Shown in pieces: positions 1,624 to 32,531 of a DNA stretch of 64,000 bases. The notes under the pieces were generated by a model, which was not told where the DNA came from, did no database searches, and saw only the letters and a list, made by a program, of their open reading frames with translations. Positions within the stretch are counted from its first letter, which is position 1, and each line of letters starts with the position of its first letter. The DNA comes from Suillus spraguei. Taxonomy: Eukaryota > Basidiomycota > Agaricomycetes > Boletales > Suillaceae. Location of the stretch: positions 124,001 to 188,000 of the forward strand of contig JABCPU010000007.1 of the NCBI GenBank assembly GCA_016800925.1, in the 5' to 3' direction. The position numbers and the translations under genes are program-made.

Positions 1624-5066
<3,443 letters not shown>

Positions 5067-9883: not shown

Positions 9884-12724
<2,841 letters not shown>

Positions 12725-13284: not shown

Positions 13285-16200
13285 ATGAAACGAGCAGCAG
13301 CGTCACTTGTACCGAAGATTAATATTCTCCCATACATATCCCAGGTCGACATCCCCGCGTTCTTTGACAACATCATATCAGTGGAAGACTTCGAACAAAT
13401 TATCATACGAGGACCCCCTTTCACACTGGCAGACCTGGTGCGTAGGCCATCGCCTGCTGTAAAATTTGAGCTGAATGCAAGCTATTTGCTATCAGCCAGC
13501 ATATGTTGATGCACTTAAGAACTTCAAATCTGGGATCAATGACCGAGAGTTTTTGGTAGGTGTAATCATTGTCTTTCATTGGATGCAAACTCACCGCTTT
13601 ATTTGTAATTCAGCTAGAGAAACTCTTGATATTGATGTCACGCCTTCCCGACGACTCAGTCTTCGCTAAAGAACTTGAGATTTCCGTGATCGGTATCCGT
13701 ACGTGTAGCCTTCGTTGACAAGTTATGGGTACAGTCCTGATCAGGCGCATCTAGTTTACAAGGACCTTCCTCATCCGCCCTGCAGCTTCTTGAAGACTCC
13801 TGTAACGACGTTTCTGTCCAGCTCCAGTAGCATGCCATATGTCTTCCGTAGTGCTGATGGCTCTAATTATTCGATGTCCGCGCCAAACCTTGGTCAAGCA
13901 GGCCAACCATATGCGCGATCTGTGCCTTCTACGCACGTTCCCTCGCGTCATCCGTTACCAGATCCAGGTGACGTATTCGATATCCTTCTACGTCGCCGTC
14001 AGGATGACTTCGTCCCTCATCCTGGCGGCCTCTCCAGTCTGTTCTTCGCATTTGCAGATCTCATCGTTCACAGCATATTTGATACCGACTCCCACGATTG
14101 GACAATTAATAATACCAGCAGCTACCTCGACCTCAGTATCCTATATGGGAACAATGAAGAGCAGGTCAATAGCGTACGCAAGAAAGATGGAACGGGTCAT
14201 ATTTGGGAAGATGTATTCGCTGACAAGCGTCTTTTGTTCATGCCCCCCTCCGTTGGTGCCCTCGCAGTCCTGTTCAGTCGCCATCATAATGTCCGTTTTT
14301 GTTCTACTGTGCAAATGGAGAGATGCTAATTCCTCAAACAGTATATTGCGAGTAAAATCCTTAGCCTCAACGAGCGAGGGACATTCGCAAATCCAGCAGT
14401 TCTTCAAGACGCGCAACGTACTGCCCAGTGCGATGAGATCTTTCACCGTGCTCGACTAGTCAATACGGCGTTCTTTATGCAGATCATCTTAACGGACTAC
14501 GTTGGAGGCATTCTTGGTCTTGTCAGGGATGGACTGACCTGGCGATTAAATCCACTTCAGGTCCGTTGTTCGTAATGCTGACCATCCATTTTGACTTTCG
14601 TTCAGGGGTTTCGCGAGCAAACGCATGACGTTTCCCAACGAGGAGCTGGGAATGCCGTTTCACTGGAGTTTAACATGCTCTATCGTTGGCATGCAGCGAT
14701 ATCGCGTCAAGACGAAGTTTGGATTGAGCGCACTTTCAAAGGCATTCTCCCTGGTAAAGACCCTTCAACTGTATGCGTGTCTATCCTTTACAGAATTTTC
14801 AAAAGATGAATTTTCTTCCTTAGATTAGTCTCAAAGAGTTCAAGGATGCCGTCCACAAGGATAGTGCTCGAATGCTTAGCATTCGTAGTTGGACATTCGG
14901 CGGGTATGATGTATTCCTTTGTCACGTATTGCCAGCTAACGAGTCGCAGTCTCACCCGTGAGGAGGATGGTCGATTCAGCGACGCTGATATCGCCCGTAT
15001 CTTACAGGATGCAACGGCCGACCAGGCTTGTGCCTTTCGTGCGAGGGGCGTTCCGGCAGTGATGCGAGTTGTAGAAATTTTGGGAATGAAGCAAGCACGA
15101 GCCTGGGGCACTTGTTCAGTAAGTCCAATTTAAGTTGCAAAGACTCGTAGTGACACCAAGTATTGAAACCCAGCTGAACGAATTTCGTCGCTTCATTGGC
15201 TTGAAACGTGAGATGGTTTTCACTTCGTCAGTTTATGGATTTATAATTTGCCTTTATAGCATACAAGAGCTTCAGCGAATGGAATCCAGATCCAGAAATT
15301 TATGTAGGGATCGATCCTGCTGTGTGCTCACTCATGTTGCCCGCATGTTGACCGTCAATAGATCGCGGCTGAACGCTTGTATGGGGATATTGAAAACCTG
15401 GAACTGCATGTAAGTCTCGATAACAGCCCTTGGACGGTTTGCATCTGAGTCGCACTCAGGTGGGGCTGCAGGCTGAGGAAACAAAACCTCCCATCCCTGG
15501 CGCTGGCCTTTGCCCTGGATACACCATTTCACGTGCCATCCTCGCCGATGCCGTATGTTTGACCCGTGGAGACAGGTTTCTTACAGTAGACTTCACTCGT
15601 GAGTCAGCTGTCAATTCTCGGGCCTATACATCATTCGTCGATACTGAGCTTCTCATGGTAGCGTTCAACTTGACAACGTGGGGTTATGAGCATTGCATGG
15701 TTAACAAGGTGGATGGATCCTATGGCGGCATGCTCACCAAGCTTCTCTTTCGCCTGCTCCCCGATCATTATCCCGCGGGCTCAGTTTACGCTCACTTTCC
15801 TTTCCTGACCCCAGAGTTCATTGCCTCAAGCATGGCCAAGGCGCCGCGCACTGCCGAGATCCGGCATCTTTACAATTGGGACAGACCCTCGACAGTTCAG
15901 CAAGCTGCGTCTGCAGCTGCTGACATGAACGTTGCTAGAGACTATGAGCGTCGACTTTCGAACTTACACATGTCCCCGAGGGTACGGGACGAAGCGGTAA
16001 GGTTTTTTGCCCTCTCCGTTATCTATTGGTTCTTATCGCTATTCATTCAGATCAGAAAGACTATCTCTCGTAAAGTTGCTGAATACACCGCCTCTACTTC
16101 AAATTTTGCACACCTTACATGTGAGCTGATACGCAAGAGACGCGAAGTGGATGAGCACGTTGATATAATCGAAATCCTGAACCTCCTTCCCGTTTATTGG

Positions 16201-17506
16201 GTGGGCGACATCATGGTCCGCTTTCTAATACCTCAATATTGGCCGCTTGGAGTTTACCTTGTTTTTTTTGGTCAGGTTGGATTACCATTGGTGGACAAAA
16301 CATCGTTGCAAGTGACTCCAGAATTTTGGTACCAAGCCTTTTTCAACATTACGCAGTAAGTTTATTTGCTGTGGTTGACCTCCCAACACTAACGTATGCA
16401 TAGTTACTTGTACTTGAATAACGACCCTGCTTCTGACTGGACTCTTCGCCAGAAAGCCATGCGCTCTACTCAGCTAATCAAGTTATACCTTGAGAGTCAT
16501 TTGAAAAGAATTTCTGATGGCATCGTAATTATGCATTTCGCTGTATTGCTCCCCTGCTCAATTGATGAACCAGATTTCAATCAATGGCATATGCGATCTT
16601 CTATTTTCAAACCACTTGTCGTCGCATAAAGGTGGAGCTTTCCTCTCAGAGGTTCTCAAAGTCATACCGCAGGCTTCGATAGAGAAAATAGCATTGTGTT
16701 TGTTCGAAGAGATCATCCCTTCTGCGGCCTTGTTCTCCACAGTCATCGCTTCTGTGGTGAAATACTACATGTATGCTCGAAACGAAGACTACTCAGACTT
16801 TGTTTCCGGTTGTCAAAACAAAGAGTCAGAACAAAGCCCAGCCGTCTTGCGGTGTATCTGCAAAGCACTCGGTAAGCCCTCTACATCTACTGTGACCTAG
16901 ATGCTATGTAACAACCAAATATTCAGATCTGGACATCGACGTTGGTCCCCAACTTTTTCTCTTGAAATACGCACTAACTTCAAGTGAAGATAATGTCCAG
17001 TGATAAGGTAAGTTATCTTAAAGCATCAACGTGACTCTCGTGTCTGAGCGTCGTTAAAGCCGTCTATCCTGCGTATCACTCTTGATAGCCAGGTTGTTGT
17101 CATTCCGGAACCAACTGGGTGCGTCCACCGATTGTCTGTGTGTCTAGCTCACGTAGATATGGTAATCCAGCCTTTTGTCCTGGAATGTCTTCTCAAAGGT
17201 AGATGCTGGTGCTTAGGGTTTGACGCGAGACCTCAGAATTTTTCAGATCGCTCCTGGAATCATTTGCAGCATCTTCCGTGCAGGTTCTATTCGTCGGCCT
17301 CAGATCGCCACTCATAGTAACGGGACGCGTGTTGATGCAGGTAAGTTGTGTGATTGTGTTATTGTCGGCTCTTTTCAATCCATTGAAGCAGAGCAAACAT
17401 CGAGATTCACCGACATCTCCATACCCACCTCAATGGTCGTTGAGGTGAGTGAATGCTGCTATGTGATAAGATCACCACTCAAAAGCAATTGTAGTACGAT
17501 GTTTGA
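13285..17506 (+). CDS. ppo: Ppo-type fatty-acid oxygenase (heme dioxygenase-P450 fusion)
   Basis: Psi-producing oxygenase / linoleate diol synthase family: the N-terminal heme dioxygenase makes a hydroperoxy fatty acid and the C-terminal P450 rearranges it to an oxylipin that governs sporulation. I can join 23 exons in one frame to about 1012 residues, near family length. Exons include 13285-13441, 13500-13555, 13614-13692, 13755-14290, 14342-14560, 14606-14770, 15662-15996 and 17495-17506. Visible hallmarks are YKDLPHPP, FRSADGSN, NTSSYLDLS and the distal-heme His in LIVHSIF. The Tyr-Arg-Trp-His motif (LYRWHAAIS) holds catalytic Tyr and proximal His. The P450 cysteine loop is RYGNPAFCPGM at about 17155-17187. 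The segment 16870-17060 is poorly conserved and its splice choices are least certain. Confidence 0.85.
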
Positions 17507-18557
17507 TACAGAAACTACAGACACGCAATTTTCCTCGTTGTATTACAAGACTCAGACACCCACACTAAATGTATTACCATCACTCGCACTGTTTTAGATA
17601 AATCGGTTTGTAATATATCATCCAATCGTACGAGCACTGGGTCCCAGTGAAAACAAGTAAAGTAGGGGTTGATATAAATTGAACGAGATTGATACGATAC
17701 TTGAACGAAGGACGTCAGTGTACACTGCAGACTTAGCTAATTGACATGGAAACGAAGCTCATGTCAGAAGCGTCCAACAGAGCGCTGTAAGGCTGGTTGT
17801 GGGTTCGAAGGGGAAAAGAGAACAGAACGAGAGAGAAAGATAAGAGAGGAAACAGGCGATAGCGACAAGGGGTAGATCGACGTAGTCAGGATACGAATAG
17901 GACTATACTTTCGAGACAAGTTGGCAGACGAGACGCTTTAAGGACTTTCTGAGGTGCTTTTTGAGCGGGGGATCTAGGATATAATTCGCTTCGTTTCCGC
18001 TCTCGTCGCCGGGGAATAAGGAACTGTACATGAGCTACTTATACTGCGGAACGGTAAGGGTCCTCGGGTATGAATAGACCGAACGATTGTGTGAAAATGG
18101 AGGAAGTGGCGTTGCTGACAAGGTAAAGTAGAATGAAGAGAAAGGTATGAAAATTGAATGAGTGACGGTATGAATGATGAGAGTTGCATAGCATGTAGCA
18201 TGTGGTCGGTCTCGAACGTTTGATTTGAAGCTATGGTCTGGGCGTAGAGGATATGCGATCCTTACAGCGTAATCGAGTCTGACCAGCTCCTTGGTACGTG
18301 CCGTAGGCATCCGTCTCCTAGGCTAAGGGTCTGTTAGCTGGACCAGAGGGAGGCTAGTGGAGCGAGCGGGTTCGGCGAGAAGGTTGCCACTACCCCACGA
18401 GCTTGTGAGTTACCTCTGGTTCTGTTTAGGATTGCTGCTACTAAGCCTATGTGAACAGAGGGAGTAAATGGACCCTGTGACGCTGCACATGGACCCCTCT
18501 AGGGATAGCCAGACGCATCAGTACACACAACCCACCATGATTTATAAAGGTGCATCA
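17507..18557. other. intergenic, with LTR-like repeat on minus strand (about 17960-18190)
   Basis: No gene recognised. On the minus strand, 18190 to 18030 matches plus 37755-37920, including 'cccgaggaccctta' and 'gcagtataa' followed by 'gtagctcatgtaca'. This resembles a promoter/R region of a long terminal repeat. Boundaries were not resolved here. Confidence 0.45.
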
Positions 18558-18619
18558 GCGAGTTGGATTGTGCCACGGAGTGCTCCGTAGCACTCCGTAG
18601 TGAATTACGTTTCCTTGAT
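18558..18619. repeat. short hairpin repeat, copy 1
   Basis: Shares 'gcgagttggattgtg' and 'tgaattacgtttccttgat' with 23192-23263. Between these lies a perfect inverted repeat, cggagtgct / agcactccg with a 4-nt loop. Here the 10-mer 'cactccgtag' occurs once; the other copy has an extra unit. Confidence 0.75.
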
Positions 18620-18642
18620 CTGCCGTACATAACACAATCTTA

Positions 18643-18948
18643 TCGATGTGGAGTAACCCGTACCCCTGAGTGACTTATGATCAGCGTTTGGCCGCATTCA
18701 GTTGTTTACTTGGTCTGCACGCGGGACCACACAAAATGCCTCAAGGCAGACATGGCAGTCCATGGTTCAAGGGTTCTTCGTTCTTACCCTGAATCCCACA
18801 AGACTTGCTCGAGCGAGCAGGGTTATTTGCTGATTTTCTTTCCAAAGAATACACATACCAGTAAGTTTTTTCAGCTCAAGAGATGGGAGAATAATGCGAC
18901 GTGACTATTAACAGGGCAACACATTGCCATTCGCGAGCAAAGTCAGAG
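18643..18948 (+). promoter_or_regulatory. upstream region shared by the two IRG-like genes, copy 1
   Basis: About 300 bp before the ATG align along most of their length with 29216-29509, including 'gatcagcgtttgg', 'cgcattcagttgttt' and 'cttggtctgcacgcggga'. The genes were therefore duplicated together with their promoter and leader. No canonical TATA box is visible near the expected distance. Confidence 0.65.
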
Positions 18949-20512
18949 ATGGGATGTGCTGAGAGTCAGCCAAAAAAGCCCAATCCAACCCTCAAGGAGA
19001 TAGAAGTGCGCCAGAATGCAGAGGTAACAACCAATAAACTACAGGAGGCTGCCGATGAGGAGAAGAAGAAAGCGACTGCTGCACAGGAGGCGGCCAACAT
19101 GAGGAAGAAAGTGGCAGAAGAGAAAATAAAGGCTGCCAATGCTGTCAAGGAGGAGGCTGAACACAAGTTGAAAGAAGGCATCCAACCCGTGGTGACTCCC
19201 ACACCTAAAGAAGTTAGCACTGCCAAGCAGAGAGTTCAATATCGCGAAGACCTTTTCCACTTTGCATTAGTCGGGGTGGCAGGAGGAGGGAAATCATCTC
19301 TCATCAATGCCTTCTGCGGTTTGCATAATAATGACATCGGAGCTGCTGCTGTTGGCGTCGTCAAAACAATGCTAGCCATAGCTAGGATCCCTCACCCCAA
19401 CGCGGAATACCCTCTTGTTTGGTATGATATCCCAGGCGCAGGCACACACAAAACCCCAGACTGGCAGTACTTCAACACCCAAGGACTTTACGTCTTTGAT
19501 GGCATCATTGTCCTGTTCGATAATCGCTTCACCATGACCGACATTGCCATCCTCACCAATTGCAGGCGATTTAATATCCCTACGTACATCGTGCGCTCTA
19601 AGGCAGACCAGCATATCTCCAATATTATGATCAATATGGGGTACAACAGCGATGACAATGAGAACAAAGGCCAGAAGAAGTGGCTGTACCAGGCTGCACG
19701 GCAGCATTTCATTCAGCAGATGCGCCAAAGCGTGAAAGACAACTTGAAGAATGCTGATATACCTGACCAAAGGGTTTACATCATTTCAAATCAAACGATG
19801 ACCGATGTCGTGAAGAGAAAGGAGGCAAAGAACATTATCAAGGAGATTGAGTTGTTGGATGACTTGATCCAAGAAGCCCAGACCAAGCGAGGATTCGGAC
19901 TCCGCGATGCTGAAGTGGCGACAATTATGAAAGAGGGAGAAATAAAACTGTTCAAGCGTTGGTCACAATCCAATTCATCCTTTGTGAATATACAAGGGAT
20001 TGAGGCTGCAGAGGTACCTACAGAGCAGGCCCGAGAGGATGCTGAGCAGCAACCCAGAAAGGATGCTGAGAATACCAGAACACATATCGCTGAGCTCACG
20101 AGGTTGATTCAAGAAATGCTGCAAAACTTGAAGGATGCTGGGGATACCAGAGCACAGATCGCTGAGCTCCACAGGTTGAATCAAGAAATACAGCAAAACT
20201 TGAAGGCCACAGTGCAGGTGCAGAAGATGCTGGGGTCGCTTTTGCACATGTTGCCAAGCTCATCAAGTCGAATCAAGAAATTCAGCAAATGTTCAGCAGT
20301 CCGGCGCTTCGCAGGCCGCCGAGCTAAAGCATCAGTGAGTCTTCTTTTTATATCAGTGCATGTGAACTAACTGCAGTGTGTTACTACAGCCAAAAACAAA
20401 CATATTGATGGTGGTTGCTGTGAGTGATGCTCAAGGCAACACTGAGGATACTGAGGAGGAGTTCTTTGGACCCGGTGGAGATGAGGAGTGGACCAGGACG
20501 ACGCATGCTTAG
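18949..20512 (+). CDS. IRG-like (immunity-related GTPase fold) protein 1
   Basis: Predicted large GTPase of the IRG/IIGP type. Exons 18949-20334 and 20390-20512 give about 502 residues. The ATG at 18949 is preferred because it gives MGCAESQ, a myristoylation (Gly2, Ser6) plus palmitoylation (Cys3) type N-terminus; no ATG precedes it in frame. A Lys/Glu/Ala-rich coiled coil (about 20-90) is followed by the G domain: P-loop GVAGGGKSSLINAF, switch YDIPGAGT, and RSKAD in place of the usual NKxD. A second helical region with AELxRLxQE repeats follows. Near 20215 the repeat pattern continues in another frame, so a small indel may have altered the C-terminus. Exon 2 adds an acidic tail. Membrane anchoring is inferred; the function is unknown in fungi. 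Confidence 0.75.
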
Positions 20513-22020
20513 CAGTGTGTTACGGCAGACGGTACTAGTAGTCCGAGTCATGCTGGGTTTTTTTCGTTATTTTTTACTTTCACTCTGCATCATCTGCATC
20601 AATGTATGTCACTCCCTGTGTACTAGTAATGCCTATCATCCAATTCATTGTCTATCGATGTGGCTCGATTGCAAGTGTAAAAACTACTTGTAACGAGACT
20701 AGTTCTGACTAGCTATGAAAACATTCCCCTCGCTGATTTTCTGATGTCACCAGGTTCTCCGTGCCATACGATGACCTCTCTGCCTTCATTACTGCTTGCT
20801 ATCAACTATCCATCTTGCAATACTGCCTCCCCCTTCTTCAACACGGCACCTCCAAAGTATCTTCTTGTCTGATGCTGTAACCATCCGCCAGGAATGAGCT
20901 CCAGCATTGTACTGGAGGTTGAAGGGTTTGGGTGCTACTGAGGTGGACTTTGGAGGGATTGTGGGTGTCTTGCTATAAGCTGCAGAGGTGCATGTTTTGT
21001 GTATTTTATGCTGCTTCACTGCATCAACCTGCTTTGTTTCCATAGATGCCCAGGCACAAGCCCTCTGTCACCGTAGTGGCAGCTCGCCTGTCTTGCTATC
21101 CCTATTTTTACACCGCTCTCATGCATACCGGTCGCAATTTCTGTTGGGTGAGTAGATCACCATCGATACCCACCGACTCTCAGTGTTAATTATTAGCACT
21201 GTGTCCTCGCTCTCAACATCTGTATCCCTTGCTCACTCTCGTCATTTAAAACAAGCACTTCATGCCACCTCTGCATGACTCATTCAATGATTCGTTATAC
21301 TCGCATGGTATCTACATGCTCACACCCTTGTACATGTTTTCAAAGCGTTGCACAGGTCCTCTCACCTGCATTCATTCATGCTTGCTTGCATTTGTCTGTG
21401 CTCACCTGCACTCACCTGTACTCTTTTAGACTTGCCTGCACTCATTTGAACTTGTCTGGGCCCACCTCCACTCATTTTCACTTGCCTGTACTTCCACTTC
21501 TCTCATTCCAGCGCCTTTGGGTGTTGTTTGCATATGTTTGAGCCACGTCAGCATTTGCTGATGTGTGCTGGGCATATGCGTTAAGCACTGGCAACTGTTG
21601 GAATTAAGTGGGCCTCTCGTTCTCCCCAATATCAGTGACCTGTACCATACTGTACCCATACCCGGTGTGACATGGGTGTGGGTATAGGCTACTGAACTTA
21701 ATAAATTCCATGCTCTGCTACTGGTTCAGTTCAGGTTCGGACCAGAAAAAAACCAAACCAGGTCACAGAGAACTGTTCTCTGTGGTCCGGTTCTGGGTTC
21801 AGTGATTTTGTAGAACCAAACTGATGGTCCGGTTCTTGGTTCTCGTCCAAGACCGGACCAAACCAGACCGCGGCAGCACTAAAATTTTCTATCATTTAGT
21901 ACATAACCTTCCATTGTAGGTTGGTGAAATGAAACTGCACTTATTGGATGACTTTCCATAGGCAAAATAATCCAGAATAGAATATACTGGAGTCTCAAAA
22001 ATATTACCAATACTGCTGAT
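20513..22020. other. 1.5-kb gene-free region with degenerate minisatellite
   Basis: Around 21320-21500 a degenerate 10-12-bp unit close to 'cactcacctg' recurs more than ten times on the plus strand. From about 21640 to 21880 there are several inverted copies of a 'ggttcggaccag / ctggtccggttc'-type sequence, like the palindromic ends of transposons; the transposase fragment follows directly. Confidence 0.55.
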
Positions 22021-22587
22021 ATGTTAATGTATACTGAAATAATCCCCCGTATGCTCATTCAATCAAATTTAGTCTGGTCCTTGATGGACGATAACTTTGC
22101 AGTCCAGCAGCTGCTTCTCGACAAAGATGAGGCTGAACATTTCGATGACGATGAGAGACTTAGGGTGCTTGCTGCCACTATCATTGCTGGGAGTGAGGTA
22201 TCACAACAAGAGCGCATTGACACTTGGCATCCACATCATTTGTACCTTTGCCGACCCAAACTACTTCCAAATCCTCGTATCAACACCCCATGGAAGGTGC
22301 TACACGATAGTCAACATGATAGAGCCTTCATCACTACAATGGGTGTTGATGTGCCCACCCTCTCCTCACTACTTACTGCAGGCTTTGCACAAGCCTGGTA
22401 TGAGACACCAATGCCTCCTGAGAATGTCTCTGTGCACAGAACTCCAAGGATAGATAAACGCTCTCTTGATGCTGCAGGGGCACTTGGGCTTGTGCTACAT
22501 TATCTCAACTCTACTATGCATGCCATTAGCCTCCAGCAGATCTTCGCTATCATCCCCAGTACTGTCATGCGATATCTTCACAGATAG
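22021..22587 (+). pseudogene. truncated PIF/Harbinger-like transposase, N-terminal part
   Basis: An open frame of 188 codons. The segment RSLDAAGALGLVLHYLNSTM followed by ISLQQIFAIIPSTVMRYL resembles the helix-turn-helix region that precedes the catalytic core in Harbinger-type (DDE_4) transposases of mushrooms. The frame stops at 22587 and no DDE domain follows, so it is a relic. The family call is from memory of the motif and is moderate. Confidence 0.55.
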
Positions 22588-23191
22588 AACGTAAGAAGTG
22601 ACGGGAAATTGATACTACTAGGTTGCATTGGGCGAGATTGGAGGCACCGGTGGCATACAGGTCAGGTAGGCACTCCATTAGTGGGCACAGAGAACTTGGG
22701 ACGTCGTTCTGGGCACTTAGAATCACCTAGATAGTGGCGGGAGAGAAAGACTTTAGCGTACTTGATTAAAAGTTGAAACGTACCTCAGTATTACTGTGCG
22801 AGGTGCCGCATTGTGTGACATGCATCTCAAGCAAGGCTGATTATGTCAGCGGATATCGCTGGCGTTAGTGGCCTAAAACGGATGTAAGTCGTCTGTAAAG
22901 TCTATTGGGGGGGTAGATGACACATGGTTACGAACTGACTGTAAATGAACAGCGGCATCGCGGCACACCTGCCTAATAAGGGTAAATATATGATATGATA
23001 TTCTAATCAGAATATTTCAGCCTACAGAAAGTCATCCATTGAATACTAGAGAATTATGACAGCATATTTGAATTTTATGCACGTTTAGCTCGGGTTAAGA
23101 CGTGGCGGCTACCACTGGCTAACGTGGACACTTGCCACGCGATTCGTTTCAAGTCAAACATCGTATGCTGTATCGTGGCGTATCCACATTA
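22588..23191. other. gene-free stretch
   Basis: Nothing recognised. There are short interrupted frames and a run of seven G near 22906. It ends at the second hairpin repeat. Confidence 0.55.
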
Positions 23192-23263
23192 GCGAGTTGG
23201 ATTGTGCTACGGAGTGCTCCGTAGCACTCCGTAGCACTCTGTAGTGAATTACGTTTCCTTGAT
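23192..23263. repeat. short hairpin repeat, copy 2
   Basis: Second copy of the repeat at 18558-18619, with the same perfect inverted repeat and one extra 10-bp unit. It sits about 175 bp upstream of the repeat-peptide gene. Confidence 0.75.
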
Positions 23264-23370
23264 GCAATTTGAAAATTTTGACCACTGCTGGCTGTTGTCT
23301 GCTGACCATGGTCCGCGCATATGTCCAATTATTGTTTGTAGAAGAAACGAAGATCGGACCTGCGAGAATG

Positions 23371-23378
23371 TATAAAAG
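23371..23378 (+). promoter_or_regulatory. TATA box of the repeat-peptide gene
   Basis: 'tataaaag' 67 bp upstream of the ATG at 23438. The clear TATA box suggests regulated rather than constitutive expression (inference). Confidence 0.6.
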
Positions 23379-23437
23379 GTCCTCTCGGTTTTTCAGTAGA
23401 GTGCATTGACGAATAGTCACTCCTCTTATCCCTAAAC

Positions 23438-24016
23438 ATGCAGCTTTCTTTGCTCTTGAGCGCACTTGTATCTCTTGTCATTCTTGGTGCAGCATCACCC
23501 ATGCCAGGAGGCATCTCAGAAGATTCCTGTGAGTATTCTTGATCATAAGCCGCATCATATTCACTTAGATGGGCTGCAATACACCACTCAGACAAGCGGG
23601 AGGAGCTAGAGAACCCCTTCTCAGGCTATGGAAACCCCTTCTCAGAATATGGTGAGATATAATATATCCATCATTTATATTCGTTTACAAATCGTACATT
23701 TTACACCAGAAAAGAAGCGCGAAGAGCTAGAGAACCCCTTCTCAGGCTATGGAAACCCCTTCTCAGAATATGGTGAGATATAATATATCCATCATTTATA
23801 TTCATTTACAAATCGTACATTTTACACCAGAAAAGAAGCGCGAAGAGCTAGAGAACCCCTTCTCAGGCTATGGAAACCCCTTCTCAGAATATGGTGAGAT
23901 ATAATATATTCATAATCTATATTCATTTACGAATCGTACATACGCATTCCGCTCCAGAGAAGCGCAAGGACCTGGAGTCAGGTCACATTTATAGTGATCT
24001 CACCGACACCTACTAG
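23438..24016 (+). CDS. secreted Kex2-type repeat peptide precursor (KEP/RiPP-like)
   Basis: Five exons in one frame: 23438-23532, 23569-23651, 23710-23772, 23831-23893 and 23958-24016, giving 120 residues. A typical signal peptide (MQLSLLLSALVSLVILGAAS) is followed by a short pro-region and then Lys-Arg sites. Three identical units follow, each EELENPFSGYGNPFSEY flanked by (K)KR, and a divergent last unit KDLESGHIYSDLTDTY. Exons 3 and 4 are identical 63-nt exons. They sit in a 121-bp exon-plus-intron repeat whose introns differ by one base. All repeat introns are phase 1, so exon gain or loss keeps the frame. The architecture matches Kex2-processed repeat proteins and ustiloxin-type precursors; no DUF3328 oxidase or tyrosinase is seen nearby. 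The first donor (gtattc) is chosen because the stronger gtgagt 4 nt upstream breaks the frame. Confidence 0.85.
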
Positions 24017-24446
24017 GACAGCAAACCAGCTGCGAAGCATAAACCTAGATGTTTTTCGTAGCAATTTGTCTCACCTCCCCGTATCGTGTCAGATCCATAG
24101 TTATGCAAATAGATAGGGGAGAAATGTATTGAGTTGATCTAGTCTCCTACTTGATGATAAACAGTCGTTCCTTCTTGATTACGGAGTGGATCATATCAGA
24201 CGCTCAACAGAGAATAAAAATAAAACACGTGGAGGAAAAGGTAGTAGGTGCGGTGCAGGACTGTTCCCAGGATTAAGATTCGAAGGTCAAGGAGAGACGC
24301 CCTCTTATGTAGTAAAGAGACCGATAAATCGCATCCTAGATCATACAACATGTATTGATACCAAAATGATCATTTAACGTCCATAAATCCACCTAGGCAG
24401 CTACAAAATATTTCTCCAACACACTCTTCGACACGACATGGGGCAT
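24017..24446. other. gene-free 3' flank
   Basis: AT-rich sequence after the peptide gene. Nothing recognised. Confidence 0.5.
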
Positions 24447-24873
24447 TCATTGTCCTTGTTTCAAATTGTACGCGACCCTGCTCTGCAGAAGAAGTACGTC
24501 TCCCGGGCTAGTGCCGTCAGCAGTTGTTGTCACGCTCGCTGGAACGGTGGATATGATGACAGATGGTGCAGTCCCCTCAGCATCGAATGTCTCGATCAGC
24601 TTTACGGGGGGATTGGGGAAGGCTTCGACGAGCGCCTGCGCCTTGCTTGCAGTCCGATTGAACAAGTAGATGCGCTGGCCCCCCAAGGGCTGAAGCCCAA
24701 AGATGACGGCAGCAGGCGCACCGATGGATGGCGCACGAAAGCAGGTGGGTTCACGAATGCCGAACTACTCGGTATTGTCTCCGAGGACATGGTTCCCTCT
24801 GTTCGGGCCAATCACAGGAGAGTAGTCATAACGGCTCTAGTCCAACGAGTCCAAAAAGCTCTGCAGAAGACAT
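24447..24873 (-). pseudogene. shikimate-dehydrogenase domain relic of the AROM polypeptide
   Basis: Minus-strand frames contain SAELFGLVG, then after frame shifts and a stop GDNTE, and then GGQRIYLFNRTASKAQALVE followed by PSVIISTVPAS. These are typical of the C-terminal shikimate dehydrogenase domain of fungal pentafunctional AROM. Only a few hundred bases remain, frames change at least twice, and no other AROM domain is present. This is a dead fragment; a working ARO1 must lie elsewhere. Confidence 0.75.
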
Positions 24874-25201
24874 TATCTGAAGTATAACACTCGCCTTTTA
24901 ATTGTCGTGGAAAAAACTAGCGGATTGTTGGTCGAGTCTGAGTCCGATTTGAACAGTCCTTGATAGAGATGTACGAGCTGGACTCAAGTTGACATGTATT
25001 ACAGCCAGATATGTCTTTCAGTTGCAGTGACAAAAAGAAAAGTGCCGAACACAAATCAGTCGTCCAAGATAGATATTCTCCGGAAGTATTCAAGAGTAGC
25101 CAATGATACATCTTGTCAACGCCACATCGGTTACAGTTCTTCAAACCCATCTGTGAGCAAGATTCAATGCGAGAGAATGACAGCATATACATGTACCCTG
25201 A
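24874..25201. other. intergenic between AROM relic and IPK1 3' end
   Basis: No gene seen; it presumably contains the IPK1 3' untranslated region on the minus strand. Confidence 0.5.
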
Positions 25202-26553
25202 TTAACTAACGCGTTGACCGTCGATGCAACGCCGCTGCCTGCCTGAACTCCTGTAATGTTCCACAATTTTCATGTCTAACTTTTCCCACTTTCCCAAGTG
25301 ATTCATGTTCTTGACATCCGTGTCGATGATTGTCGCGTCAAACGAACCTACCTGCGAAGATGTAGGCCGGATAATGATAGAGCAATCCTTGAACGTCGCT
25401 GAAAGAAGGTATGCTATTAAATAATGCCGGAGGTGTCCAGGGTTTAGGACTGTGTGGTCCCAGGAATGATAATCAGACTGGTAAACTTTGACGAAGTCCT
25501 CCCATTCCTCCATGGCAGGATCAGGAACTGAAGACCCAATACCGTAGTATGGGCAACCTGGTGATGTCTGTGTGTACAACTTGGATAAGCCCTCTATATC
25601 AAGGATATCCAGTGTTCGTTGTAAAGTCGAAAGAAGGGGAAGGACGGGACTGTCAAGAAGTGCCTGCGAAAGAACGGATATGAACGATTCCCGGAGGTCC
25701 TGGACGTCAGTCAATTCGTTCGCAGTAAAGAAGAGTGCCAGCAATTGCATCGAGTGGTCCTATGCAAACCTATCAGGAATATGTGAACGTGATATACTGA
25801 AGACGTACATCATCTGGTTTTGCCATTCTGCCCTCGACGAAGAATCGCAAGTTATTGAGAGAGCCGTGGCTCTCATACCACCCGGCCCACAAAGCACCTA
25901 GGGCCCTTTTAACACGTGTCTGATTGCGGGAAAAAAGGTCCAACGGACAATATGTCGTACCGAAACCCCCTTGTTCCATTTTGAAGCTGGTGTGCATACA
26001 AAATCTGCATGTTGCTGTCTTCAGAGCGACAGTCGCAGGCGAGAGATGGCATTCTGTAGGTAAAAATCCCCATTTTGGCTAAACAACCAATCAGACACAG
26101 ATATTCTGCCAATAAACTGGCGATAACCTTGATTTCCATCGCGATGGACGTGCCTCCAATGAGATCCGTGGCTAACACACCCTTACTCCTGCGAACATCA
26201 ATCTGATCCGTCTGCCTTCTCTCTGCTGGGCGATCGCCGTTGCGTAGGACAACAAACGACCTAAGCCAATCTTCGTCGAGCACCACCACCACAAGACTCG
26301 GCAAGAACTCAGAGGGAACAAGTTTTGAGATGATGTTTTCTTGGAAGGCGATCATAGGATAATCTAACTGTTCAGTATTTGTTTCGAGTAGCATGTTGTC
26401 TGACGACCCGTGAGCGACTTTACGGAGACGTAGGACATGATCAGAGAATTTGACATTGTGAGGTCCTTGATACGAGAATACGATAGTCGCCGCTCCCTCA
26501 GAGACGTATATCCAATCCTGAGGTTTTGTTTCAGTAATAAACGCTGGAGTCAT
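25202..26553 (-). CDS. IPK1: inositol-pentakisphosphate 2-kinase
   Basis: Phosphorylates the 2-position of inositol pentakisphosphate to make phytate (InsP6), a nuclear cofactor in mRNA export. Three exons, each a whole number of codons: 26553-26128, 26078-25809 and 25759-25202, giving 417 residues. The ATG at 26553 is the first in frame. Visible motifs are DWIYVSEGAATIVFSY (nucleotide site), GVLATDLIGG, and EIKPKWGFLP across the first intron, which is diagnostic. Further motifs are CRFCMH, CPLDLFS, GSLNNLRFFVEG, FKDCSIIIR and the DxD-like IDTDVK near the C-terminus. It is divergent from the AGC-like kinase with 291 bp between starts. Confidence 0.92.
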
Positions 26554-26844
26554 TTGGAATATTGATATTGGCTTTTTCACTTATAACACATGTTACATGT
26601 CGCAATAAATGGCCACAGCAGGCATATTACATAACAAGCGTCAAACAAGCCTAGACTAAACACTAATTCGAAGCACGATCATGCTCTGACCTGCCACCAC
26701 ACCTTTTTGTGGAAACAATGGATGATGATGTGGAATTGTCGCTGTCCCGGTCACAGTATTTATTGACCATTTCTGAAGTCTGGTTCTATAACCTTGAGTG
26801 TTTCATCCCAGTACAACAATCTCGTTCCTACTAAGCTAATCAGA
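26554..26844. promoter_or_regulatory. divergent promoter IPK1 / AGC-like kinase
   Basis: 291 bp between two start codons on opposite strands. A 'gtatttat' lies near 26755. No strong TATA box is seen. Confidence 0.4.
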
Positions 26845-28402
26845 ATGCGACACCCAACTCCCTCGCCATCCAAACCATCTACAAGCTCACGAGCCACAAA
26901 ACATCCTTCTCGATCCCCGAAAGTAAATGCTGCACCATCCAAAGGTGTCCATGCTCGCAAGAACGCCCTCAAAGCATCCATTACTGGATGTGCTTCACAT
27001 TATGATCCTAAACCGGTCTGTACTCCCTGGTGTCCTTCTGAGTCATGGCATGTTCACTGACTGTTGCATACAGCCACGTATCACCGTCCATGGATTACCT
27101 GGTTATACTGGTGGCATCTTACCACCCGATGCAGTAGACCCTCGCCCCTCCGCACTTTCTTTGGACGGTTTCGAATGTATTCGCACATTAGGTATGGGAT
27201 CCCTATTTCAGAATTGAGAGCCAGAATTGAGTTGAATCGGTTCACTTGATGTAGGCGACGGAGCTTATGGTCAGGTTTTACTCGTACGAGCGCGCGATCA
27301 ACCAAGCCTAGGGAAACAGGCACGTCCAGGATCACTGTTTGCAGTGAAAGTCCTCCCCAAAGAAAGGATGAAACTGATTGATCAGGTATGCACACCTCCG
27401 CTACATCATCTTTCCAACTATAACCTTTCACCCAGAAACACCCTGCGGATACTAATGCAGAGACAATGCATTTATCGGCATTGCGCTGGAGTCCTTGGGT
27501 GAACGGTATCGTAGGCACCTTCAAGGACGAATTGAATCTCTACCTTATGCTCGAGTTTATACCGAGTGGGTGTTTCTACGACATCATTCAAACGCGCGGC
27601 CCTTTCGATGCCGCTACCGCCCGGTTCTACTTCGCCAATATTGTGTCTGGCCTATATTTCCTCCATGGTGAGGGAATTATTCATCGTGATCTCAAACCAG
27701 CAAATATCCTTGTTAGATCCGATGGGTACTTGGCCATCGCAGACTTTGGATATGCCCGTTTAGATGAGATTGACAATGGACCAGTATCAGAATGGCTGAT
27801 GATCGGGACGCCGCTTTACATGGCTCCTGAGCTTCTGTGTTATCAACATATGACAGGATACAGCGTCGATTGGTGGGCGGCAGGCGTTACGTTATACGAA
27901 ATGCTAACGAAGAGAACGGTCAGTGCCATTAAATTCTTCGACATGAAATCTTTCTTATGTTTATCTTACTGGCAGCCATTCTTCGGTACGGATGAAAACA
28001 AAATATATAAAAGGATCTCCTCTGGGAAGTACAAGTGGCCCAAGGGCCTGCGCGTGGGCAAATCCCTGAAGTCCATCGTCGCAGGGCTTCTGACCACGAC
28101 GATCGAGGATCGTCTGGGTATTAAGGATTCCGTTCTCGACCACCCATGGCTTGATAACATCGATTTTGATAAATTGGATGCTGGGAACTACATGGTATGT
28201 CCCCTTGTGTGAGCAAACATACGTTATGTCTGACGGATAGATGATATAGGCCCCTTGGATCCCTGAAGCGCCTGCGCCCACCCAGACGTGGTTAAACAAG
28301 GGCCTTCCACCACAACATTGCATTCCTGGACTGAAAGTTTGCGCACCGGCTGTGCACCGGGAGTGGGATGACCGTTTACCCAGGAAACAATTGCCTATTT
28401 AG
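26845..28402 (+). CDS. AGC-family serine/threonine protein kinase
   Basis: Six exons in one frame: 26845-27015, 27074-27191, 27255-27385, 27436-27918, 27976-28194 and 28250-28402, giving about 424 residues. The N-terminus is basic and Ser/Pro-rich and probably unstructured. Kinase hallmarks are the glycine loop GDGAYGQV, LFAVKVL (Lys), HRDLKPANIL, DFGYA, GTPLYMAPELL and YSVDWWAAGVTLYEML. After the kinase lobe comes an AGC-type tail (NIDFDKLDAGNYM) and then a Pro/Trp-rich end. The PKA-like layout suggests an AGC kinase, but the usual DFGFAK reads DFGYAR and the P+1 loop differs. The exact subfamily is not clear. Confidence 0.85.
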
Positions 28403-29215
28403 CTGACTCTTGCTGCTTTGTTTCTTTCATTACAACCCTGCATTTCTTATACTGATATGTAACATATGTAACGATGGTACATATTCATCACTGCTCGTGT
28501 GATTACTGCTGCCTGGCAATACTATCGATACGAATACGCCTTTTCGTACATCAATATTTATGCGCATCAGGGTACATGTTCGTATGCCAGATGATAGGAC
28601 TGTACTATTTGTCAGTGGCAACCCCGTCCCTCGCACTTCATGGAAAACGTAACATTCTTGCTCATATCTCGAGCATTTTGACAATGTTACGAAGAGTATG
28701 AGTTATTACGAGGTATAACTTGTCAGGATTTTGAAACAATAATTTGATTGGAACGATAGCGGACTGTTGAAGCATGTCAGGACCGTCCGCTCAGCTAATG
28801 TGTGACTTGAGAGCATATATCCGTTGCGTATCCTTTTTACGCATTTGCATCACTTTACTGAACCTCCTTTTGCTAATCACTTCCATAAAATTGAATATAC
28901 CGATAATCAAAGACTCGTTCCTTATTGGTCTGTGGTCGATTTTGAAGTGAAACGAGTCGGTGCCAGCGGTGGCAAATTGTAGCCTTCATTCTTCCTGTGT
29001 TTCTGCACCTTCCTGCATTGCCTGCACATCCACTCTACTCAAAGTCTACTACTACCCAGATATCGCTTCGGACTCAGAGCTTGAGAGACTTAAAGTTGAT
29101 GTGATGTGGGCCTTCTCAACACAACGCCAGCCAGCGCATCTCGCTTACTTCCTCTCGACATGACAAACGCCATCTATTCGAACGAGGCTACAGAAAGCCT
29201 GGTAAACAATCTTCA
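28403..29215. other. gene-free stretch
   Basis: 3' flank of the kinase gene and further sequence with only short frames. Nothing recognised. Confidence 0.5.
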
Positions 29216-29509
29216 ATGTCGATGTGGAGCAACCCTTAGCCCTGAGTGACTCATGATCAGCGTTTGGTCGCATTCAGTTGTTTGCTTGGTCTGCACGCGG
29301 GACAATATAAGACGCCTCAAGGCAGACATCATGTTCTATGGTTTAAGGGTTAGTTCTCATCCTGGAATCCACAAGACTTGCTCTGTTAGCTGATTTTTCT
29401 TTCCAAAGCATACACATATCAGTGAGTTTTCTCAGTTCAAGAGATGGGATAATAATGCGACGTGACCGTTGACAGGGCCACGCATTACCATTGTCGAGTA
29501 AAGTCAAAA
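29216..29509 (+). promoter_or_regulatory. upstream region shared by the two IRG-like genes, copy 2
   Basis: Aligns with 18643-18948, including the blocks 'gatcagcgtttggtcgcat' and 'gtctgcacgcgggac'. The homology ends near the ATG and resumes within the coding sequence. Confidence 0.65.
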
Positions 29510-30811
29510 ATGGGATCTTGTGGGAGTCGGCCAGAAAAGCCCAATCCATCCATCGAGGAGATAAAAGCGCGCCAGAAGGCAGAAGCAGCTGCTGCGCAAG
29601 CCAAAAAGGATGTCGAGGCCGCCAGGGAACGGATCGCCGAGCTCAACAGGTTACATCAAAGAATGCGGGAAGAGGCTACGGCGGCTGAACAGGCTGCCTT
29701 TCAAGCTGCGGAAGCCGCAAGGGCTCAGGCCCAAAGGGAAAGGGAGACGATGGCCGAAGCTGAACGTGCTGCCAATGAAGCTCGCTTGTTGGCGGAAGCC
29801 GCTGCTCGTACTGCCAGCGCAGAAGCACAACAGAGAGCAGCGGAAGCAGAGGAAGAGCGTAAGCGAACTGCTGCTGTCCAAGAACAAGCCAAACGAGACG
29901 TTCAGGCTGCCCAGGAGCAGGCCAAGAAACTACAGGAGGTTGCTGATGAGGAGAAGAAGAAAGCGACTGCCGCCCAGGAGGCAGCTAACTTGTCGAAGAA
30001 AGTGGCAGAAGAGCAAGTAAAGGCTGCCAATGCTGCCAAGGAGGAGGCTGAACGCAAGTTGAAAGAAGGCATCCAACCTGTGGTGACTCCCACACCTAAG
30101 GAGGTTCGCACTGCCAAGCAGAGAGTTCAATATCGCGAGGACCTTTTCCACTTTGCAGTAGTCGGGGTGGCAGGAGGAGGGAAATCATCTCTCATCAATG
30201 CCTTCTGCGGCTTGCGCAATAACGACGCCGGGGCTGCTGCCACTGGCATCATCGAGACCACGCTAGCCATAGCTAGGATCCCTCACCCCAATGCGGAATA
30301 CCCTCTTGTCTGGTACGATATCCCAGGTGCAGGCACACTCAAAGTCCCAGATTGGCAGTACTTCAACGCCCAAGGACTTTACGTCTTCGACGGCATCATC
30401 ATCCTGTTCGACAATCGCTTCACCATGACCGACATCGCCATCCTCATCAACTGCAGGCGTTTCAAGATCCCCACGTATATCGTGCGCTCTAAGGCAGATC
30501 AGCACATCTCCAATATCATGACTGATATGGGGTACGACAGCAACGACGATGAGGACGAAGGCCAGAAGAAGAGGCTGTATCAAGCTGCACGGCAACAGTT
30601 CATTCAGCAGACGCGCCAGAGCGTGAATAACAACCTAGAGAATGCCAATATACCTGACCAAAGGGTTTACATCCTTTCGAATAAAACAATGATCGGTGTC
30701 GTGAAAAGAAAGCAGGCAAAGAACGTCATCGACGAGATTGAGTTGTTGAACGACTTGATCCAAGAAGCCCAGACCAGGCGAGGACGCCCTGATGATGAAG
30801 TGGCAATGTGA
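29510..30811 (+). CDS. IRG-like GTPase protein 2
   Basis: Single-exon paralogue of the gene at 18949, 433 residues. Starting at the ATG at 29510 gives MGSCGSRP, again a Gly2/Ser6 myristoylation-type N-terminus with a nearby Cys. A much longer Ala/Glu/Lys coiled coil (about 20-175) precedes the G domain. The G domain has P-loop GVAGGGKSSLINAF, TGIIETTLA, switch YDIPGAGT, FDNRFTMTD and RSKAD. The protein stops soon after the G domain, lacking the C-terminal helical repeats of protein 1. The motif order matches vertebrate IRG proteins better than Ras-like or septin families. The two paralogues differ mainly in coil length, pointing to repeat expansion or contraction. Confidence 0.8.
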   Translation: MGSCGSRPEKPNPSIEEIKARQKAEAAAAQAKKDVEAARERIAELNRLHQRMREEATAAEQAAFQAAEAARAQAQRERETMAEAERAANEARLLAEAAARTASAEAQQRAAEAEEERKRTAAVQEQAKRDVQAAQEQAKKLQEVADEEKKKATAAQEAANLSKKVAEEQVKAANAAKEEAERKLKEGIQPVVTPTPKEVRTAKQRVQYREDLFHFAVVGVAGGGKSSLINAFCGLRNNDAGAAATGIIETTLAIARIPHPNAEYPLVWYDIPGAGTLKVPDWQYFNAQGLYVFDGIIILFDNRFTMTDIAILINCRRFKIPTYIVRSKADQHISNIMTDMGYDSNDDEDEGQKKRLYQAARQQFIQQTRQSVNNNLENANIPDQRVYILSNKTMIGVVKRKQAKNVIDEIELLNDLIQEAQTRRGRPDDEVAM

Positions 30812-31418
30812 CCGTGACGCCATCTGGTGTCCAATATGCTATCCTTTCTTGTCCAAACCGTTATTTCACCCAATGATAAGTACTAACAACAGCTAGTAGT
30901 ACTATAAAAAAGCTCTCGGCTGAGACACTAGCTACCCGTTCTATTCTCTTCGTCGTCCTTCTCCGCTTCTCTCCGAGAGCCTTTAGTTTCAATACTGCGC
31001 AGTTCGTAGATTTGCCTTGCACCGGTGTTTTTTGGAACCCCAAATCGCAGAAACGTTTACCACCGAGATCGTTCTAAGTATCAACAAATTTCTATCCTCA
31101 GTAATCGATATGCATCGACCTCTATTTTACTTGGGGCAGTATGCGTGCGAGATCGGAAAAGTACACGTTATCATCATCTGTATCTGTAGATACTTGGCAG
31201 GTGTCGGGTCTCAATTGCAATGCAGCCCTGTGTCTCCCAGCTATTGAGCCACTACCTATTTTACCTTGATCCTCCGTAATCCGTAAATTAACTGATCTGG
31301 AGGCAAAATGTTCTATTACAAGTCCCGTTATGTAACAAAGTGAACAACATCCGACAGAACATGAATCACGACCTCAACAACAAATGACGAGTACGAGAAG
31401 AAAGGTGCTATTGCACAC
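30812..31418. other. gene-free stretch with TATA-like site
   Basis: 'actataaaaaagctc' near 30900 is followed by a pyrimidine-rich stretch like a transcription start region, but no gene follows. It may be a relic promoter or LTR end. Confidence 0.4.
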
Positions 31419-32531
31419 TCAAAATGCCTGGGCAACATTGTAGAGAATCGGCAGACCAACAACTGCAGCCAAGGCCCCAAGTTGTTTCCCAGGTGCGAGT
31501 GCAATACCACGAGGAGCGGCACCAACTGCTTAAGTATATGATATGGTATAAGTCAGGTCGCATATTATAAGAAAGAAGCGGCTCACCGAGACCAGTGGAA
31601 GTAGATCCTGCGGATGAAACAGTCGAGGAAGTGAGGGACTGACTGCTTGAAGAACTAGTTATTGTGGGGTTAGTGGATGTAATTACACCACTGCTGGAAG
31701 GAGTGGTTCCTGGCAGAACAGTTGACTTGGGAGGAGGAACAGTCGTGGAGCTAGTTAGAGTGCTTCCACTTCCAGAACTTCCACCACCTGAGCCTCCAGT
31801 GGAACATTGATCAGAATTTGCGATGCACGTAGATCCAGTAGGGCAGCCTAAATGTATGTTAGCGTGGCTCATGCAATCGATGGAGAACATAACATACATC
31901 CCCCGGTGGAGTCATTGCAGCACGAGTAACCAGATTCACAGCAGCTGTCGTCGTTGCAGCACTGACTACCAGGATTACAGCAGGCATTTCCATTACACGT
32001 TTGCGCGGTATCGGGACAACATCTACAGCAACCTTCAGAAAAGAAAAGCAAATTGATCGAAATTTTCTCACTGGGAATCGAAGCACTGGTTGCAACGCTC
32101 GTCAGTCAGTTTTTAACGATTAGGTCTAAAAAGGCGAAGTCACGTACGGTGGTGTCATCTGGACAGGTATACGAATCGCTGCACTAGACTCAAAATATTA
32201 ATCACAGTGGAAAGGTTCATTATACAACCTTACACAGTAGCTGCCAATAGGAGCACATGCACCTGGGTAGTTAGTGCATGACTCTAGGGCGGGTTAGCAA
32301 TGTGTTTCTGAGCATTTAACACGTGAGTTCCTCACGATATCCGCTAGGGCACCCTTGTCGAGCGTCAAACTTTCCTCGCCGAACCAAGAGAGCTGATAGT
32401 AGAGACTTGGTCAGTACCAGTGACGATGACTTGAAGTGACGCGGAACTCGTAAGACTGTTGAGGCAGGGTCCGCAACAGCAAGCTGAAGGAATAAGGAAA
32501 GAGATAGGGCGGTACACAACAGACGCAGCAT
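31419..32531 (-). CDS. cysteine-rich secreted, probably GPI-anchored protein
   Basis: Seven exons join in frame: 32531-32336, 32283-32234, 32183-32148, 32097-32072, 32022-31898, 31847-31587 and 31528-31419, giving 267 residues. A signal peptide (MLRLLCTALSLSLFLQLAVA) precedes a basic region with RR, as for a processed pro-segment. A Cys-rich domain runs from CPSGYQSC through QCCPDTAQTC, ACCNPGSQCC and SCCESGYSCC to GGCCPTGSTC. These paired cysteines recall granulin-like folds. A Ser/Thr/Gly-rich, probably O-glycosylated linker and a hydrophobic C-terminus (LGALAAVVGLPILYNVAQAF) follow. A cell-wall location is inferred. I do not recognise a named family. Confidence 0.8.

Follow-up and report, generated by a model that had tools for sequence, protein, structure and literature searches.

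Positions 23438 to 24016 of the window, by which we mean the whole stretch of 64,000 nucleotides analysed (G000:C924:124001-188000, from a Suillus spraguei genome of 86,217,890 bases in 1256 contigs), raise the question of whether a short exon-plus-intron repeat encodes secreted peptides, each on an exon of its own, and whether such a gene has relatives. Suillus is a genus of Boletales and is ectomycorrhizal on pines. Judged from the comparisons below, the gene at these positions (the window gene) is likely a secreted repeat-peptide precursor of the KEX2-processed repeat protein (KEP) kind, arranged as an array of symmetric exons and belonging to a Suillus-wide family. The gene model has five exons (91, 60, 63, 63 and 59 nt) and four introns, all GT-AG and all in phase 1, and its features are as follows.

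23438..23528, + strand: exon 1, leader MQLSLLLSALVSLVILGAASPMPGGISEDS and the first base of the next codon (gene model, annotated protein)
23529..23591, + strand: intron 1, GTGAGT..CAG, phase 1 (gene model)
23592..23651, + strand: exon 2, KR and core EELENPFSGYGNPFSEY, 60 nt (gene model)
23652..23709, + strand: repeat intron, 58 nt, phase 1 (94.8-96.6% identical to the repeat introns of the paralogue C924b)
23710..23772, + strand: exon 3, EKKR and core EELENPFSGYGNPFSEY, 63 nt (gene model)
23773..23830, + strand: repeat intron, 58 nt, phase 1, a single base unlike the preceding repeat intron
23831..23893, + strand: exon 4, EKKR and core EELENPFSGYGNPFSEY, 63 nt, base for base the same as exon 3
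23894..23957, + strand: last intron, 64 nt, phase 1 (gene model)
23958..24016, + strand: exon 5, EKR, last unit KDLESGHIYSDLTDTY and stop (56 of 59 bases the same in C924b)
23594..23941, + strand: 121-bp exon-plus-intron tandem repeat, 2.9 copies (TRF)
25202..26580, - strand: neighbour, two reading frames matching inositol-pentakisphosphate 2-kinase (PF06090)

The spliced translation is identical at 111 of 111 residues to the hypothetical protein BDR07DRAFT_1457014 of Suillus spraguei, and the splice chain thus agrees with an independent gene model. The product runs leader, KR EELENPFSGYGNPFSEY, EKKR EELENPFSGYGNPFSEY, EKKR EELENPFSGYGNPFSEY, EKR KDLESGHIYSDLTDTY, so that three identical 17-residue cores are bounded by KR or KKR, as in KEPs; the leader is hydrophobic, signal-peptide-like by eye, and common to the family across Suillus. 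A sequence-only reading of this stretch had already described the leader, the Lys-Arg sites and the three identical peptides, and had seen two 63-nt exons identical to the base within a 121-bp tandem; all of these are present, the tandem being recovered by TRF (score 647, 96% matches) and the two repeat introns being 98.3% identical, with 1 difference in 58. Its central claim, a repeat-peptide precursor in which each peptide is its own symmetric phase-1 exon, is supported. The first donor, however, is the GTGAGT at 23529 and not at 23533 as had been claimed; with splicing just ahead of 23533, exon 1 would have 95 nt and the frame would be lost. Each core holds two Tyr and two NPF motifs, the latter from a 21-bp internal doubling (23612-23652, 23733-23773 and 23854-23894), in agreement with the doubling and Tyr count reported earlier. 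Pfam searches with P0001, P0004 and P0031 gave no match above the cut-off, an NPF-motif match being weak and non-significant (E 0.17). The last unit had been called a variant of the cores: it is indeed unlike them (KDLESGHIYSDLTDTY), but the corresponding C-terminal unit in C924b is KDLESGHIYSDLTDVY, and the exon resembles a conserved C-terminal exon more than a core in decay.

The segment 23831-26571 is also present on C481 as a truncated 2.7-kb duplicate of 96.2% identity. C481 was rejected as an allele of the window for the stretch examined (window 15001-35000 against about 20 kb of C481), since homology spans only these 2.7 kb. Elsewhere in the window, 18895-20370 and 29456-30811 carry reading frames that are similar by eye, the former matching the interferon-inducible GTPase PF05049, and 3291-4352 and 11003-12094 carry two closely similar reading frames (by eye), apparently a local duplication, which we take to be helicase-like.

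To find relatives, the genome was searched with the leader, a Suillus lakei homologue, the DNA of the window gene and repeat units. At least 19 related loci were found, and five of them were modelled as arrays of 4, 10, 11, 13 and 13 repeat exons. The number 19 is a lower bound from a list picked by hand among the best-scoring candidates, in which three loci, C392, C453 and C522, were included on weak matches to repeat units (E 0.0018-0.0021) and from which a match on C1147 (E 0.265) was excluded; the loci are not independent, because near-duplicate pairs occur among them (C908/C318, C36/C967 and C470/C382). We name the group the Suillus [ED]EL repeat-peptide family, a term coined in this analysis. 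Its leader is of the form MQLS..SALVSLVIL.AASP.PG.IS.RS, and most of its units start with [ED]EL behind a basic site, and most contain tyrosine; the window gene has the homologous leader and the phase-1 intron behind it. C924b, on the same contig as the window gene and 60 kb off, has four core exons, EELSPEYLKYGSTG, EELDSAYFKYDSTG twice and EELGSAFIKYGTIG, and a single precursor thus carries more than one kind of peptide. In the gene models, C470a has 13 core exons and C382 has 10 with three GC donors, and in both the last-unit exon is shortened by an early stop. A second branch consists of C908 (11 repeat exons) and C318 (13 repeat exons), each such exon being 75-78 nt long and the open frames spanning 14 and 16 exons, respectively; the repeat exons of both have KER before the cores and no dibasic site, which weighs against a KEP reading.

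Intron phases are all 1 in the window gene, C924b, C470a, C382, C908 and C318, and all 54 repeat exons of these six genes are multiples of three, in a count that leaves out C470b, C481 and C536a and uses exon and intron lengths entered by hand from the models. The 50 repeat introns counted in the same genes include lengths of 52, 53, 56, 58, 59 and 63. One unit per exon is found in the window gene, C924b, C470a, C382 and the repeat part of C908 and C318, two units lie in exon 2 of C320, C36, C269, C908 and C318, and the repeats of C1213 and C969 share a single open frame instead of having one unit per exon. When the array models were searched as proteins, two of three (C470a and C924b) had no identical entry and the window gene was annotated; the 13-unit C470a model gave no match at E<=1 among 7999 candidates scored, and no protein identical to the C924b model was found among the candidates scored. 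Many such arrays may thus go unnoticed when a survey is based on predicted proteins.

Between the window gene and C924b, repeat introns share a mean of 95.7% identity (6 comparisons), whereas core exons share 53.5% (12 comparisons); for one core pair, the observed 36/65 equals the 95th percentile of shuffles, with a shuffled mean of 50.0%. Of the other parts, the leader exon is 92.3%, the last exon 94.9%, the 5' flank 92.0%, intron 1 88.9%, the 3' flank 82.7% and the last intron 78.1% identical. Because the introns are alike and the cores are near chance, peptides appear to have been replaced inside conserved introns. The same holds for the window gene against C470a (introns 94.2%, cores 50.9%) and C382 (introns 94.7%, cores 52.2%), while the cores are closer between C924b and C470a (introns 93.3%, cores 77.2%) and between C470a and C382 (introns 94.2%, cores 89.3%). 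Within C924b, three 54-nt core exons vary at 8/54 sites and three introns at 0/58; within the longer arrays, exons are less variable than introns in C470a (0.185/0.207), C908 (0.103/0.173) and C318 (0.128/0.192) and about equally variable in C382 (0.111/0.103). Within a long array the cores are thus mostly alike, and between genes they are replaced, C924b being a mosaic. The likeliest driver of core replacement is selection for new peptides, although the divergence could also reflect a single replacement event or relaxed constraint, and we do not equate it with positive selection because near-chance similarity allows no rate test.

The family extends across the genus. A seven-member profile matched 64 proteins at E<=1 among 7993 candidates scored, of which 55 are named and come from 20 Suillus species (P0065, among these 55, matches at E 0.59 only), eight are unnamed and one is from Gallowayella weberi. 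In the last, P0064 from a lichen fungus, KRDELDGDV..KREELDGDV repeats resemble Suillus units (E 1.3e-3), a likeness that might stem from convergence or transfer. In P0034 of S. hirtellus, RYNLFVIYSFTHCTFTP at a unit boundary resembles the translated C320 intron VRYNLFAIYSFTQRTLCI, and similar stretches are visible by eye in P0027 and P0009. This suggests that other species carry the intron at the same position and that gene models sometimes count it as coding. Among 58 proteins (1653 pairs), median pairwise identity is 0.70 for the leader and 0.30 for the best-matching units, a contrast that favours the leader because the proteins were found by a leader-rich profile. This comparison leaves out 7 of 65 proteins (P0003, P0058 and P0061-P0065) and takes as leader a stretch of 30 residues starting at the first MQ, or else at residue 1, which gives the wrong leader for P0059; the protein alignment took 40 of the 65. 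Neither the genus-wide family nor core replacement between conserved introns lay within view of the sequence-only reading, whose observation is real and whose interpretation is partly supported.

One expectation of that reading, that the number of exons varies, is seen both among paralogues (3, 4, 10 and 13) and between close copies. An alignment of C908 with C318 gives 99.1% identity over 2950 bases, yet C908 has 11 repeat exons and C318 has 13, with the frame of each open as far as the stop; their last exons hold two and three [ED]ELDAGQNDYAVAA units, respectively. The two are either alleles or recent duplicates. S. bovinus, stated to be ectomycorrhizal on pines in the accessible part of PMC10971629, has a genome of 43 Mb according to the same text, and with 86 Mb the S. 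spraguei assembly may hold two haplotypes. The main caveat on the count of 11 against 13 is assembly error, to which tandem arrays are prone.

What becomes of the released peptide admits two readings, which we hold to be about equally probable. According to the first, which is a real possibility though somewhat short of probable, the window gene encodes a dikaritin-like RiPP precursor from which Kex2 releases the 17-mer with its Tyr residues, to be cyclised by UstYa oxidases whose genes lie elsewhere in the genome. PF11807 has at least 50 matches on the genome, counted exon by exon among the best candidates. The nearest UstYa match lies 491 bases from C1213, 800 from C536a, 2289 from C969 and 3940 from C536b, so that four of the 19 loci lie within 5 kb; UstYa surroundings make up 0.246% of the genome, and 0.047 of 19 loci would be expected there (P(>=4) = 1.4e-7, or P(>=3) = 1.4e-5 if C536 is counted once, the 19 loci not being independent). 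Some of the locus positions were rounded, and UstYa matches grouped into genes, by hand. The HxxHC motif is found at the nearest UstYa match of all four linked loci, and among 15 UstYa loci inspected L065 lacks it in the right strand. The leader of C969 resembles four family leaders (z 7.0-10.6), its repeats, such as KRDELDTNLFDYPEYEEVQ, lie within a single open frame, and the window gene itself has a core with two Tyr. On the other hand, no PF11807 match at E<=0.01 is on contig C924 among the matches listed, 15 of the 19 loci are more than 5 kb from any UstYa match listed, and of the four linked loci C1213 has a repeat run similar to that of C969 with a stop inside its leader, and C536a has no leader. 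In the accessible text of PMC7329392, moreover, DUF3328 neighbours are given for only 103 of 1680 Basidiomycota KEPs. Matches to DUF3328, for which a search had been suggested, are near 4 of 19 family loci and, among the matches listed, not on the contig of the window gene, which lacks dikaritin linkage and may still work in a dikaritin-like way with enzymes in trans.

Two observations concern the same regions. At L060 (G000:C1213:36787-37233 and C1213:33209-36209), a KREELDSNLFTYPNYEEEQ-type repeat run lies about 0.5 kb from UstYa matches, and G000:C536:32090-98686 holds about seven UstYa (DUF3328) genes (hand grouping) within 70 kb. A plausible history has two sides: UstYa-linked precursors in which no intron separates the repeats, and dispersed arrays with one exon per peptide. 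The analysis puts repeat precursors close to UstYa matches in Suillus. For S. bovinus, S. brevipes and S. luteus, the published table of secondary-metabolite clusters in the accessible part of PMC10971629 lists none of the fungal-RiPP type.

According to the second reading, which we would neither prefer to the first nor rank below it, the window gene releases an unmodified linear peptide for signalling or host interaction (a mycorrhizal small secreted peptide, or an antimicrobial one), in an amount that follows exon number. The 15 of 19 loci without a UstYa match within 5 kb are consistent with it, as are the KEP peptides of other agaricomycetes, which are linear and minimally modified as described in the accessible text of PMC9769878, and the turnover of cores suits an outward-facing peptide; against it, the family co-locates with UstYa matches above chance.

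A tandem duplication in decay, with no product and left over from an active family, is a very unlikely account of the array. Such decay would explain why C470b is frame-broken and why C481 and C536a are truncated, so that part of the family is apparently decaying or misassembled, and it would fit the shortened last unit in C470a and C382. In the window gene, however, the frame is fully open, the last exon is common to C924b and the gene is annotated, and the 54 of 54 in-frame repeat exons also speak against decay. Moreover, the variable exon sites of C470a and C908 fall at codon positions 1, 2 and 3 in the ratio 4, 3, 11 of 18 (P = 0.014); C318 (3, 2, 5) was kept outside this total because it nearly repeats C908, and C382 (2, 2, 2) and C924b (2, 4, 2) are without bias and have few sites. 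The in-frame exons and the third-position bias support, without proving, translation of the arrays. Two further structures were seen. G000:C470:67187-69043 is an inverted second copy of the 13-unit gene in which small length changes break the frame in several units, through either decay or assembly error, and at L048 (C536b, G000:C536:50748-51278) an exon-like block stands three times in tandem with spacers of about 15 bases and, by eye, no normal intron. A chance minisatellite with an accidental reading frame and no spliced peptide gene, for which the 121-bp tandem repeat might speak, was rejected as next to impossible, since other loci share the leader, the intron positions and the phase, and homologues occur in 20 Suillus species.

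We thus return to the secreted precursor of the KEP kind, whose layout, family, varying exon number and core replacement are all visible in the sequences compared. Cleavage, modification, dose effect and function of the window gene are what we infer. Its transcript would be spliced as annotated, the leader would be removed, and Kex2 would cut after KR to yield three copies of EELENPFSGYGNPFSEY and one of KDLESGHIYSDLTDTY; a kexin-type P-domain is found at two places in the genome among the matches listed. The arrays would lengthen or shorten as near-identical exon-intron units undergo unequal exchange or slippage, and the cores would diversify under selection for new peptides, as with outside partners such as the plant host, microbes or animals. 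Some members, perhaps the window gene in trans, might be oxidatively crosslinked at tyrosine by UstYa-type enzymes. It weighs against this precursor reading that knockouts of kep genes in Coprinopsis cinerea have no detectable phenotype, as reported in the accessible text of PMC9769878. More broadly, and only tentatively, Suillus may possess a cassette system in which peptide exons are added, removed or replaced within a conserved frame of leader, promoter and intron, giving fast-changing secreted peptides, many of them UstYa-crosslinked in trans. Because every modelled repeat exon is symmetric, exon skipping could also tune the number and mix of peptides per gene. With such arrays, a symbiotic fungus would have a concrete genomic means of altering how many peptides it secretes and what their sequences are, with the reading frame kept.

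Among the closest known systems are KEPs (Le Marquer 2019, PMC6339444; Umemura 2020, PMC7329392; Vogt 2022, PMC9769878; as far as their accessible texts describe them): they have a signal peptide, to which the signal-peptide-like leader of the window gene would correspond, share with it short repeats bounded by KR, KKR or RR and diverse cores, and occur in mushrooms. The Suillus family differs from KEPs as published there in its symmetric phase-1 exon per repeat, its well-conserved introns of 52-63 nt and its core replacement. The words intron, exon and Suillus are absent from the main texts of PMC6339444 and PMC7329392, and in the accessible text of PMC9769878 intron appears once, about cDNA cloning, and exon never; no description of exon-per-peptide KEPs was found in the main texts of the open-access literature as far as accessible. 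The dikaritins (ustiloxin, phomopsin and asperipin-2a, which depend on UstYa/DUF3328) resemble the family in their KR-bounded repeated Tyr cores, and the likeness to KEPs and ustiloxin first proposed from the layout of the window gene is supported; they differ in that no UstYa match is on the contig of the window gene among the matches listed, although some of its relatives are near UstYa. To our knowledge, dikaritin precursors are not exon-per-peptide. GigA and the epichloecyclins of Epichloe also count among the closest known systems and differ in coming from an ascomycete. In frog-skin peptide genes (caerulein, dermaseptin), a conserved export exon is followed by variable peptide exons. The window gene is like them in combining a conserved leader exon with small fast-changing peptide exons, and the likeness, to genes of an unrelated animal, is one of analogy only.
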